From a virus: a stretch of DNA of 35,608 nt. Under the pieces are notes generated by a model that saw only the letters and a program-made list of their open reading frames with translations, ran no database searches and was not told the DNA's origin. The stretch is taken from IMG/VR virus record IMGVR_UViG_3300021425_002585, positions 1-35,608 of that record; one strand, 5' to 3'. A program made the position numbers and the translations under genes. Shown one piece after another: positions 2,846 to 27,533 of the stretch. Within the stretch, counting starts at the first letter, position 1, and each line of letters opens with the position of its first letter.

Positions 2846-3709
2846 TTAATAACTCTGTGCTAAACGCCACATCAAATATTCTTTTGATTCAATAGGCGGA
2901 TACTTTGCTGCTTCACCTTTGCGCAAGTTGAATACTTGTGTGCCTGGTGTAGGATCAACAAAGTGTGGCATACTATAACGCTGTTGATGAATATGGCTAT
3001 TAACAACTCTGTGTTTGGTACTAACAAAGTAATCGTTTGTCCAACGCTGTAACAAGTCACCAATATTAACCACTATGCCATCTTCTGCATATGGTACTGG
3101 ATGCCAAGCACCCGTTAAGTCTTGCACTTCGAGTCCTGGTACATCGTTGATTTGCCATAGCAAAGTAATAGTGCCATAGTCTGAATGTTCACCAATACGC
3201 ATCTGTTTGTTTTCAACAGGTCCGTCATAAGCAGGATAGTGAATAACTCTTGTGGTATTGAATGGTTCTGAATGTGCATCTACCAGTGTAGTGCCTGTGT
3301 CAAGTATTTCGTCAAACTTGCCCAAGATACGCAGTGTAAGTCTATCTGCAATATCTATGCTTTGTAATGCACTCTCTTTGAAACCCGAAAGTTCTGTTGG
3401 CCACAAATGATCAGGCATACGCATATTGTTGTAGTTAAATGATTCTTTTATATCTTTGGGTGCCGTAGGATCTACGTTTTCGTCTCCGACCATGCTGTAT
3501 CCTAAATTGGTATCACCTTCATAAGGATACTGCTTTTTTACACTATCTGGCAAATCAAAGAATGCTTTCATTTGCTGTTGCCAGTTCTTCATATTGGTAT
3601 TGTCTTCAGCATCCAACGCATTTGTAAAGACGGCGAAGCCCACGGTAGTGTAGGCTTCGTCAATACGATCCAAAGCGTCTGCTGCTTTTAAATCGATAAT
3701 AGGTATCAT
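2846..3709 (-). CDS. Isopenicillin-N-synthase-like 2OG-Fe(II) oxygenase, 287 aa
   Basis: The start IPIIDLK and the DAYTTVGFAVFTN-like region match the non-haem dioxygenase N-terminal domain. The catalytic domain has GEHSDYGTITLL (HxD iron ligands), NIGDLLQRWTND, STKHRVVN (distal histidine) and RYSMPHF (the RxS pair for 2OG). Length is close to bacterial members of the family. The biological substrate cannot be read from sequence. It starts at a TGATG overlap with the upstream BMP-type protein gene, so these two are translationally coupled, and it is followed at once by the TauD-like gene. Confidence 0.85.
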   Translation of the reverse strand: MIPIIDLKAADALDRIDEAYTTVGFAVFTNALDAEDNTNMKNWQQQMKAFFDLPDSVKKQYPYEGDTNLGYSMVGDENVDPTAPKDIKESFNYNNMRMPDHLWPTELSGFKESALQSIDIADRLTLRILGKFDEILDTGTTLVDAHSEPFNTTRVIHYPAYDGPVENKQMRIGEHSDYGTITLLWQINDVPGLEVQDLTGAWHPVPYAEDGIVVNIGDLLQRWTNDYFVSTKHRVVNSHIHQQRYSMPHFVDPTPGTQVFNLRKGEAAKYPPIESKEYLMWRLAQSY

Positions 3710-4800
3710 CAGTTAGGTACCTCTGCGTTAATACCTTCAACATAATACATCATAGTGTCAAGATGCGCACGATCAGCAACTTCACCTGCTGCCAACACTT
3801 GATTGCCTTTGTTGTCGTTTAGTGGACCTGTGAAAGCAAAGTATTCACCTGCTGTAATAGCTGCTTTTACTTCTGCTGCTTTTGCTGCCACATCTGCTGG
3901 CATATTTGTAAATGGTGCCATCTCAACTGACCCGTCATTCATATGTCCAAAGTAGCATCCGTCTGGACCATCACACATTGGTGTCCAAGTACCGTCTAGT
4001 ACCTGTCCTACTTTTTCAATATAGTATGGACCCCAGTTGTCAATGGTTGCTGTAAGTTGTGCTTTTGGCGCAAAATTGATTTGATCTGATGCCTGGCCAA
4101 AACCAATCTTGCCTTGGACTTCTGCTGCCTGTAATGGAGCAGGCGAGTCTGTGTGTTGTGCAATCACATCACAGCCCTGGTCCATTAGAGCAACAGCCGC
4201 ATCTTGTTCTTTTGCTGGATCATACCAAGTGAACACCCAAACAATATCAATATCTACATCTGGGTTCACACTTTTGGCACCCAAGTAATATGTGTTGATT
4301 TCACGGATCACTTCTGGAATTGGATACGCTGCCACATAACAGATTTTATTTGTTTTGGTCATCATACCTGCAATAACACCTTGTACGTGTCTTGCTTGAT
4401 ATAGTCGCAGTCCATAGTTTGAACTATTCACGCCATTTGTTTTGTAGCCTGTTGCGTGTTCAAACTTTACGTTTGGAAACTTCTTAGCAACTCTTTCTAC
4501 TGCATCCATATAACCAAATGATGTTGCAAAAATAATGTCATGTCCTTGCAGTGCCATTTGTGTTAGCACACGTTCAGCATCTGCACCTTCAGGTACTGAT
4601 TCAATATAAGTTGTTTCAACTCTATCTCCGTATGCTTCTTCTACTTGTTGACGACCAATGTCGTGCCTATATGTCCATCCATGATCGCCAATTGGGCCAA
4701 CATAAATGAAGCCAACTTTAACTTTGTCAGCAGCCTGTGCTGCCACGCCGAAAGACCCCATCAACAAGAGTGATGCGGCTAATAGTCTAAATAATTTCAT
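3709..4800 (-). CDS. BMP-family ABC transporter substrate-binding protein, 363 aa
   Basis: A signal peptide ending AAQAA is followed by KVKVGFIYVGPIGDHGWTYRHDIGRQQVEEAYGD, the hallmark start of Bmp/PnrA-like binding proteins, with the ATSFGYMDAVERVAKKFPNVKFEHATG segment also typical. Family members bind nucleosides or related purine compounds in the periplasm. No permease or ATPase genes are nearby, so the protein would have to feed host transporter components. SD AAAGGA precedes the ATG. The gene lies directly downstream of the tmRNA and may share its transcript. Confidence 0.85.
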   Translation of the reverse strand: MKLFRLLAASLLLMGSFGVAAQAADKVKVGFIYVGPIGDHGWTYRHDIGRQQVEEAYGDRVETTYIESVPEGADAERVLTQMALQGHDIIFATSFGYMDAVERVAKKFPNVKFEHATGYKTNGVNSSNYGLRLYQARHVQGVIAGMMTKTNKICYVAAYPIPEVIREINTYYLGAKSVNPDVDIDIVWVFTWYDPAKEQDAAVALMDQGCDVIAQHTDSPAPLQAAEVQGKIGFGQASDQINFAPKAQLTATIDNWGPYYIEKVGQVLDGTWTPMCDGPDGCYFGHMNDGSVEMAPFTNMPADVAAKAAEVKAAITAGEYFAFTGPLNDNKGNQVLAAGEVADRAHLDTMMYYVEGINAEVPN

Positions 4801-4827
4801 ATATGATTATCCTTTGTTGTGTGTGTT

Positions 4828-5114
4828 GGGCCCGTTCTGTTGCTAGGTGGAACCCATACCCCGCATACCTAAATCAGGCTGCGATTGCCATTGCTGGCGC
4901 TGCGTTTGTGTTTGCAGTTATAAAGTTTAACCTATTACGCTGTTACCCGGTTAACTCCACTTCACTTTCACACCTGTCGATCCTATTTCTCGCCCATAAA
5001 AAACACACTATTGACCTTTCAGTGATAGAGAGTGATTTCTCCTAGTGTGCTTATGGTGGACGAGTGCGGTACCGCCCCGCAGTCCAGTATGTGTCCACGT
5101 TGCTTCAACGCTAA
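4828..5114 (-). ncRNA. ssrA: Circularly permuted (two-piece) tmRNA
   Basis: Read on the minus strand, the acceptor piece comes first: a T-stem TGCGG/CCGCA (5081-5065), acceptor strand CTCGTCC (5064-5058), A, then CCA (5056-5054). An intervening segment with arms CACACTA and TAGTGTG follows. The coding piece starts with GGGCGAG (4995-4989), which pairs with CTCGTCC (one G-U), followed by AATAGGATCGACAGG, a tmRNA signature. CAG+GTGTG of the coding piece pairs with CACAT-A-CTG of the acceptor piece as helix 2. The tag frame at 4915-4874 reads ANTNAAPAMAIAA then TGA. The permuted form is typical of alphaproteobacteria. The T-loop (GGCGGTA) departs from the usual TTCRANY. The 5' and 3' ends are estimates. 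Confidence 0.9.
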
Positions 5115-5119
5115 CACAC

Positions 5120-5127
5120 TATTTATA
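5120..5127 (-). promoter_or_regulatory. T4-late-type promoter (TATAAATA) upstream of tmRNA
   Basis: An exact TATAAATA lies about 6 bp before the predicted 5' end of the tmRNA acceptor piece and 11 bp after the stop of the MBL gene. If functional, the tmRNA and possibly the BMP gene are expressed late in infection. Confidence 0.65.
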
Positions 5128-5137
5128 ACACATTTGA

Positions 5138-5965
5138 TTAAAGTTTGTCAACCGGTATTTTTATAACTTCTGGTACTTCACCTGCTCGCATATTAACTTG
5201 TATGCTGGGCAGTATCAGTTGTGGCATACTCAGTTTAGCATCACGGGCTTCACGCATTTCAACATACTCCGATTTGCTTTTACCAGCAATCTGTATGTTC
5301 TTTGCTTTCTGTTCGCCTACAGTTGTTTCCCAAGCATAATCACGCCCGCCTGGAGCGTAATCGTGTGCCACAAAGATACGTGTTTCATCTGGTAGAGCAA
5401 GTATCTTTTGAATGCTGTCATACAAGTCTGCGGCACTGCCTCCTGGAAAGTCACATCGTGCTGTACCAAAGTCTGGCATAAACATTGTGTCACCTACAAA
5501 GGCAGCATCTTCTATTAGATAGGTTAAACAGGCAGGTGTATGTCCTGGAGTGTGCATTACTCGAGCACGTAGTTCGCCAATCATAAACTCATCACCTTCA
5601 CGGAACAGTCTATCAAATTGACTACCGTCACGCTCAAACTCTGTGCCTTCGTTGAATATCTTACCAAAGGTTTCTTGCACTGTCATTATGTGTGCGCCAA
5701 TAGCAATATCACCACCTAGTTTTTCTTGTAGGTAAGGTGCTGCACTCAAATGGTCTGCGTGAACGTGTGTTTCTAATATCCATTCAACTGTCAAGTTGTG
5801 CATTTGGATATATTGGATAATATTGTCTGCATTGGCAGTGTTGGTTCTGCCACTTGCAAAATCGAAGTCTAGTACGCTGTCTATGATAGCGCATTGTTTG
5901 CTGTCGTCAATTACAACATAACTAACCGTTTTGGTTGCGGTGTCAAAAAAGTCTTGTATTTGCAT
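5138..5965 (-). CDS. Metallo-beta-lactamase-fold hydrolase, persulfide dioxygenase/Blh-like, 275 aa
   Basis: Metal-binding motifs are clear: ETHVHADH (HxHxDH), MHTPGHT, FVGDTMFMPDFGTARCDFPGGSAADLYDSI and FVAHDY. The DFGTARCDFPGG block is typical of the ETHE1/Blh-like persulfide dioxygenase branch rather than glyoxalase II, suggesting oxidation of glutathione persulfide or a related sulfane sulfur compound. I chose the ATG at 5965 because it begins the conserved fold (QIQDFFDTATKTVSYVV); the longer start at 6031 runs into the upstream gene. A late-promoter element AATAAATA lies 5 nt upstream, with no Shine-Dalgarno sequence, so the mRNA may be leaderless. Confidence 0.8.
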   Translation of the reverse strand: MQIQDFFDTATKTVSYVVIDDSKQCAIIDSVLDFDFASGRTNTANADNIIQYIQMHNLTVEWILETHVHADHLSAAPYLQEKLGGDIAIGAHIMTVQETFGKIFNEGTEFERDGSQFDRLFREGDEFMIGELRARVMHTPGHTPACLTYLIEDAAFVGDTMFMPDFGTARCDFPGGSAADLYDSIQKILALPDETRIFVAHDYAPGGRDYAWETTVGEQKAKNIQIAGKSKSEYVEMREARDAKLSMPQLILPSIQVNMRAGEVPEVIKIPVDKL

Positions 5966-5970
5966 ACAAG

Positions 5971-5978
5971 TATTTATT
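5971..5978 (-). promoter_or_regulatory. Late-promoter element abutting the MBL start codon
   Basis: AATAAATA followed by CTTGT and then ATG. In T4 the last A of the element sits near -6, so transcription would begin at or next to the A of the start codon. Confidence 0.5.
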
Positions 5979-6197
5979 TTACCACTTTTCTGCTGTGCGT
6001 TTTTTGATATCTTTTTGAGCACGTATAGCATTCATTAAACGAATGATTCTGCTTTTCTTTTCACCTGGGCGATCATAATTGTTCTTTTGTGACCAAGTTT
6101 TATCTTGTTCTAACTCTTTGGCAAACTGATCGCCTAGTAGTTTTTCTAAATACGACAAGTCGTCGTTACTAAGTTCTTGTATCTTCCGTGAAACCAT
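5979..6197 (-). CDS. Small hypothetical phage protein, 72 aa
   Basis: A charged helical protein (ELSNDDLSYLEKLLGDQFAKELEQ followed by a basic C-terminal half with SRIIRLMNAIRAQKDIKKRT). The start MVSRK at 6197 overlaps the end of the upstream gene by 29 bp; a longer start at 6266 lies entirely inside that gene and is unlikely. Function unknown. Confidence 0.6.
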   Translation of the reverse strand: MVSRKIQELSNDDLSYLEKLLGDQFAKELEQDKTWSQKNNYDRPGEKKSRIIRLMNAIRAQKDIKKRTAEKW

Positions 6198-14411: not shown

Positions 14412-14419
14412 TATTTATA
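14412..14419 (-). promoter_or_regulatory. Late promoter TATAAATA overlapping the nrdA stop
   Basis: An exact TATAAATA whose TAA is the nrdA stop codon, 68 bp upstream of nrdB. Confidence 0.5.
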
Positions 14420-25501: not shown

Positions 25502-25509
25502 TATTTATA
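25502..25509 (-). promoter_or_regulatory. Late promoter TATAAATA abutting the start codon at 25497
   Basis: An exact TATAAATA, then CTAT, then ATG; its TAA is also the lipase stop codon. This is the clearest case of the leaderless arrangement. Confidence 0.6.
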
Positions 25510-27525: not shown

Positions 27526-27533
27526 TATTTATA
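27526..27533 (-). promoter_or_regulatory. Late promoter TATAAATA overlapping the PiT stop
   Basis: An exact TATAAATA whose TAA is the PiT stop codon, immediately followed by the early promoter's -35 region. Confidence 0.45.

Follow-up and report, generated by a model that had tools for sequence, protein, structure and literature searches.

Two-piece tmRNAs are known in marine T4-like phages, among them Melnitz (EXVC044M), Mosig and the pelagimyophages; by 2021, 53 unique two-piece tmRNA structures were on record from phage genomes, 50 of them marine or aquatic (PMC9004378), and the tmRNA database holds 79 phage entries (PMC11915505). The promoter of the Melnitz ssrA gene has been described only as early (PMC9004378). 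The gene treated here lies in the virus record IMGVR_UViG_3300021425_002585, a 35.6-kb viral fragment (35,608 nucleotides, analysed as a whole and called the window), and adds to the phage two-piece tmRNAs already known. The Melnitz gene resembles it in being a permuted ssrA of the alpha type in a T4-like marine phage, with TTGACA-N17-TATAAATA in front; the window tmRNA differs by running into a bmp gene, and Melnitz by a predicted glutamine riboswitch in the 3' domain of ssrA and by an open frame in its spacer of 142 nt. The roseophages DSS3_MAL1 and MD18 share with the window a permuted ssrA and nearly the same tag, ANTNAAPMEMAIAA, but in these phages the gene stands beside a tRNA cluster and the TTGACA/TATAAATA promoter was not found by the scan; no late sigma homologue was found in DSS3_MAL1. 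The alphaproteobacterial two-piece tmRNA (RF01849) has the same gene order, T-loop (GGCGGTA), G3.U70 acceptor stem, core and style of tag (ANDN...AA), whereas the window gene stands apart from it by a reduced 3' part of the coding piece, a phage promoter, a 13-aa tag and its divergence in sequence.

The window carries a complete, circularly permuted ssrA gene on the minus strand (4828-5127), on which ARAGORN and two Rfam covariance models agree. ARAGORN reported a permuted tmRNA at 4783-5147 (minus strand) with the tag ANTNAAPAMAIAA. The alpha_tmRNA model RF01849 matched 4824-5154 (minus strand) with 100.2 bits (E 1.9e-26; gathering cut-off 50 bits), and the tmRNA_permuted model RF04321 matched 4874-5115 (minus strand) with 105.9 bits (gathering cut-off 47 bits); both scores are about twice the gathering score, as expected of a permuted tmRNA of the alpha type. 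The first-pass annotation, which gave no strand, had recognised a permuted phage ssrA and proposed a covariance search as the check, and the result bears it out.

All parts of the gene lie on the minus strand, in the order TTGACA, 18 nt, TATAAATA, acceptor piece, 58-nt spacer, coding piece and bmp, so that the acceptor piece is encoded ahead of the coding piece. The acceptor piece (5054-5114, ARAGORN and Rfam; 5' end predicted) contains the T-arm TGCGG-GGCGGTA-CCGCA (5065-5081) and the acceptor strand CTCGTCC (5058-5064), and ends in CCA. The spacer predicted to be excised from between the pieces (4996-5053, 58 nt) folds into a stem-loop. The coding piece (4828-4995) comprises the acceptor strand GGGCGAG (from 4995), the GGATCGACAGG core, the resume region, the tag and a 3'-terminal hairpin (4828-4855, 3' end predicted). 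The tag frame (4874-4915), found by ARAGORN and read in the sequence, has a resume codon, encodes ANTNAAPAMAIAA and ends with the stop codon TGA. In the tmRNA alignment, judged by eye, the pairing of the 3'-terminal hairpin is kept while its sequence varies. Agreement with the bacterial model is poor in the long P2 helix between the pieces, and the covariance score is 70-132 bits for phage members vs 229-304 bits for bacterial ones; parts of the phage structure are therefore reduced, a point against a working tmRNA.

The ends GGGCGAG and CTCGTCC, previously noted as complementary, form seven pairs including G3.U70, followed by ACCA. Across 58 distinct viral combinations of T-arm and acceptor (acceptor 5' strand taken at the best of four offsets), all seven acceptor pairs and all five T-stem pairs form in every case, and substitutions at acceptor pairs 4-6 and T pairs 1-3 compensate each other. 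G3.U70 occurs in 58/58, with U70 partly ascertained because most viral loci were retrieved by a pattern containing TCCACCA; since the search patterns fixed the T-loop and, for most loci, TCC, invariance at these positions partly reflects the way the loci were chosen. The sequence GGCGGTA had been read as an atypical T-loop that might alter the interaction with EF-Tu or SmpB. It is, however, the consensus of the Rfam alpha_tmRNA family and occurs in four of five aligned bacterial tmRNAs (the fifth, from SAR11, has GGCAGTA); the loop is thus not atypical, and the proposed change of interaction is unsupported.

The nearest relatives of the window tmRNA are from phages (94% identity to L260 and 84% to L004; L numbers denote retrieved loci). 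Identity to 16 sampled bacterial tmRNAs does not exceed 56%, a FastTree phylogeny places the gene in a clade of 99 sequences with no bacterial member (support 0.91), and a search of 385 alphaproteobacterial genomes with the tmRNA returned short partial matches only. Because of these three observations, and within the bacterial sampling used, the gene looks like a member of an old phage lineage. Integration of phages at ssrA is common, and ssrA fragments are known in prophages (PMC9004378), so that a recently captured host gene or a functionless remnant of an integration site might be considered. The gene is whole, its structure intact and its promoter and bmp neighbour conserved; together with the phage-only clade, the low bacterial identity and the short matches in the 385 genomes, this makes such an origin very improbable, and recent capture is rejected on the sampling used. 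The tag frame and its stop are intact in the window, and an identical tag occurs in L167 and L260; it is closer to the Rhodobacterales type (ANDNRAPVAVAA in L285 and L286) than to the ANESYALAA of SAR11. The permuted phage tmRNAs L200, L230 and L327 encode tags of unusual length, for example AKKAHNDNINYSAMKIAA and ANIKVSNDNTPFEAMKVAA, with MKIAA or MKVAA at the end.

The -10-like element TATAAATA (5120-5127, minus strand) also matches the 8-mer of T4 late promoters, and the gene had on this ground been called probably late. The 8-mer by itself is within chance (5 in the window vs 3.1 expected). It stands here, but with a consensus TTGACA 18 nt upstream that a T4 late promoter without a -35 box would not have. 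This -35 element (5146-5151, minus strand) is an exact match, overlaps the final codons of the gene upstream and is conserved at phage tmRNA genes; TTGACA-N18-TATAAA with zero mismatches occurs only at this site in the whole window. A generic promoter scan missed it because that scan requires T at the last -10 position. Three more TATAAATA sites in the window (14412-14419, 25502-25509 and 27526-27533) overlap or adjoin stop codons, two of them a short way ahead of a following gene, which is the placement expected for late promoters; a consensus -35 box is missing from all three.

In the relatives, TATAAATA is conserved, mostly 42-49 nt ahead of the T-arm. The T-arm pattern retrieved 101 distinct tmRNA genes from viruses with sufficient upstream sequence; in 48 of them a -35 box with no more than one mismatch precedes TATAAATA. 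Within the retrieved viral loci, perfect TTGACA-N16-18-TATAAATA was found at 51 sites ahead of tmRNA vs one elsewhere, and TTGACA with TATAAT at one tmRNA site vs 54 elsewhere (Fisher p 2e-28 for the contrast, the sequences not being independent). The spacing is mostly 17 nt across the 51 sites, and the letters between the boxes vary while both boxes are kept. The promoter also occurs away from tmRNA: of the 106 sites retained from those listed in an open scan across viral contigs, 82 have neither tRNA nor tmRNA downstream, and tmRNA follows about a fifth. Since a consensus TTGACA at 17-18 nt is conserved together with TATAAATA, early use by sigma70 and later use by a late sigma factor is more likely than purely late transcription, which is not favoured; the earlier reading of the gene as probably late gives only part of the picture. 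Use by late sigma would fit the homologues (45-51% identity) found in the phages from which the tmRNA loci L004, L231 and L059 come, the window itself being a fragment. The two boxes together could also be just a sigma70 promoter.

Downstream of the tmRNA lies a gene for a Bmp/PnrA-like ABC transporter substrate-binding protein (bmp; 3709-4800, minus strand; Pfam PF02608, E 2.9e-50). It begins at 4800, 27 nt behind the tmRNA, and is preceded by the Shine-Dalgarno-like AAAGGA. Because the gap is only 27 nt and no terminator was found in it, tmRNA and bmp probably form one transcript. By a strict pattern, tmRNA stands directly ahead of bmp in 10 of 80 viral bmp loci (L005-L084, of which a fraction have bmp right behind tmRNA), and Rfam or ARAGORN places it in this position in L009, L010, L011 and L029 too; a search of 80 bacterial bmp loci for the tmRNA core found none. 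Viral contigs often carry Bmp/PnrA-like genes, with 227 matches confirmed. Upstream of the tmRNA, a gene of the metallo-beta-lactamase fold (5138-6031, minus strand) has as its best NCBIfam match, under the model cut-off, the bifunctional sulfur transferase/dioxygenase Blh, and is a possible phage sulfur-metabolism gene.

Several genes of the window look bacterial: Bmp, two 2OG oxygenases, the metallo-beta-lactamase-fold protein, a PstS family protein and a peroxiredoxin. Bmp, a 2OG oxygenase and the metallo-beta-lactamase-fold protein, with a TauD-like one, are neighbours of the tmRNA and resemble bacterial metabolic genes, as they might on a host chromosome or a chimeric contig. The rest of the window is filled by phage families: NrdA/B of phage type, with 70-72% identity to their counterparts in T4-like cyanophages, and tail fibre, exonuclease, virion and other phage genes; for the T4-type core (Kyanoviridae and relatives), NrdA/B, the exonuclease and the structural families are nearest T4-like cyanophages. 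No capsid or terminase gene was identified in the 35.6-kb fragment. The bmp-tmRNA junction, moreover, recurs in other viral contigs and not at the bacterial loci. On its gene content the contig represents part of a marine T4-like phage genome; the host-chromosome origin that the first-pass annotation had named as the outcome fatal to its claim can hardly be credited, and nor can a chimera. The nearest bacterial match to bmp, at 82%, comes from Rhodobacteraceae SB2 and from a MAG related to it.

The intact gene very probably encodes a two-piece tmRNA that performs trans-translation during infection, most likely drawing on host AlaRS, SmpB and proteases. Transcription would start at TTGACA-N18-TATAAATA, read early by host sigma70 and later, through TATAAATA, by a phage late sigma of the gp55 type. 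The precursor would consist of the acceptor piece, the 58-nt spacer, the coding piece and then the bmp mRNA; host tRNA-processing enzymes would cut it, and the two pieces would remain paired. Host AlaRS would charge them with alanine by way of G3.U70, and the charged tmRNA would bind host SmpB and EF-Tu and rescue stalled ribosomes, with ANTNAAPAMAIAA added to the stalled products and leading to their proteolysis, presumably to the benefit of the phage. SmpB was found in neither the window nor 12 phage records, and in both bacterial genomes searched; the phage tmRNA therefore probably shares the SmpB of the host. As proposed in the first-pass annotation, it may replace the tmRNA of the host or compete with it. 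The same result would suit a decoy that is charged and bound by SmpB, competes for the host protein and mainly blocks or diverts host trans-translation, and an inhibitory phage tmRNA, the tag-less one of mycobacteriophage DS6A, is cited in PMC11915505. The tag frame and stop, superfluous in a decoy, are kept in the window and in related phages, and this role is considered unlikely. Active trans-translation remains the preferred reading.

The spacer of the window (58 nt) holds no open reading frame. Among phage tmRNA genes with spacers of at least 90 nt, by contrast, 17 of 39 have a frame of at least 25 codons with a Shine-Dalgarno sequence and ATG (identical spacers counted once, related spacers not merged), vs 0.6 expected by chance and at most four in 300 mononucleotide shuffles. 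Small genes of this kind with a Shine-Dalgarno sequence lie in the spacers of L004 (3111-3266), L018, L168, L243, L225, L183 and L244, and also of L310, L313, L216 and L403. For the families common to different contigs, pN and pS were 0.08-0.10 vs 0.55-0.76 (63-aa family), 0.06 vs 0.28 (51-aa family) and 0.13 vs 0.63 (45-aa family), values that indicate purifying selection on the encoded proteins. Some spacer proteins have counterparts encoded elsewhere than in a spacer. The 62-aa protein of L216 and L403 matches gene 85 of Melnitz, the immediate upstream neighbour of the tmRNA in that phage; for the 63-aa family the match is a frame that ends where the L029 tmRNA starts. Searches of PHROG and GenBank phages assigned these proteins no function. 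The L004 frame reaches into the coding piece and stops there, so that a transcript could be either cleaved or translated in full, but not both. No report of spacer-encoded proteins in tmRNA genes was found in the open-access literature searched, nor any description of the apparent promoter pattern or phage-only lineage; the candidate spacer genes stand out above all.

In the broader interpretation, for which the chances seem about even, marine phages possess their own long-separate two-piece tmRNA lineage with an early and late promoter; the gene serves as a cassette, here heading a bmp transcript, and its spacer acts in relatives as a slot for small proteins, so that one precursor yields either tmRNA or a protein message. 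The conserved early-plus-late promoter suggests that the tmRNA is wanted throughout infection, contrary to the published guess of early-only action. A protein-coding tmRNA spacer, if true, would make for an unusual transcript that is both structured RNA and message, with cleavage deciding between them.
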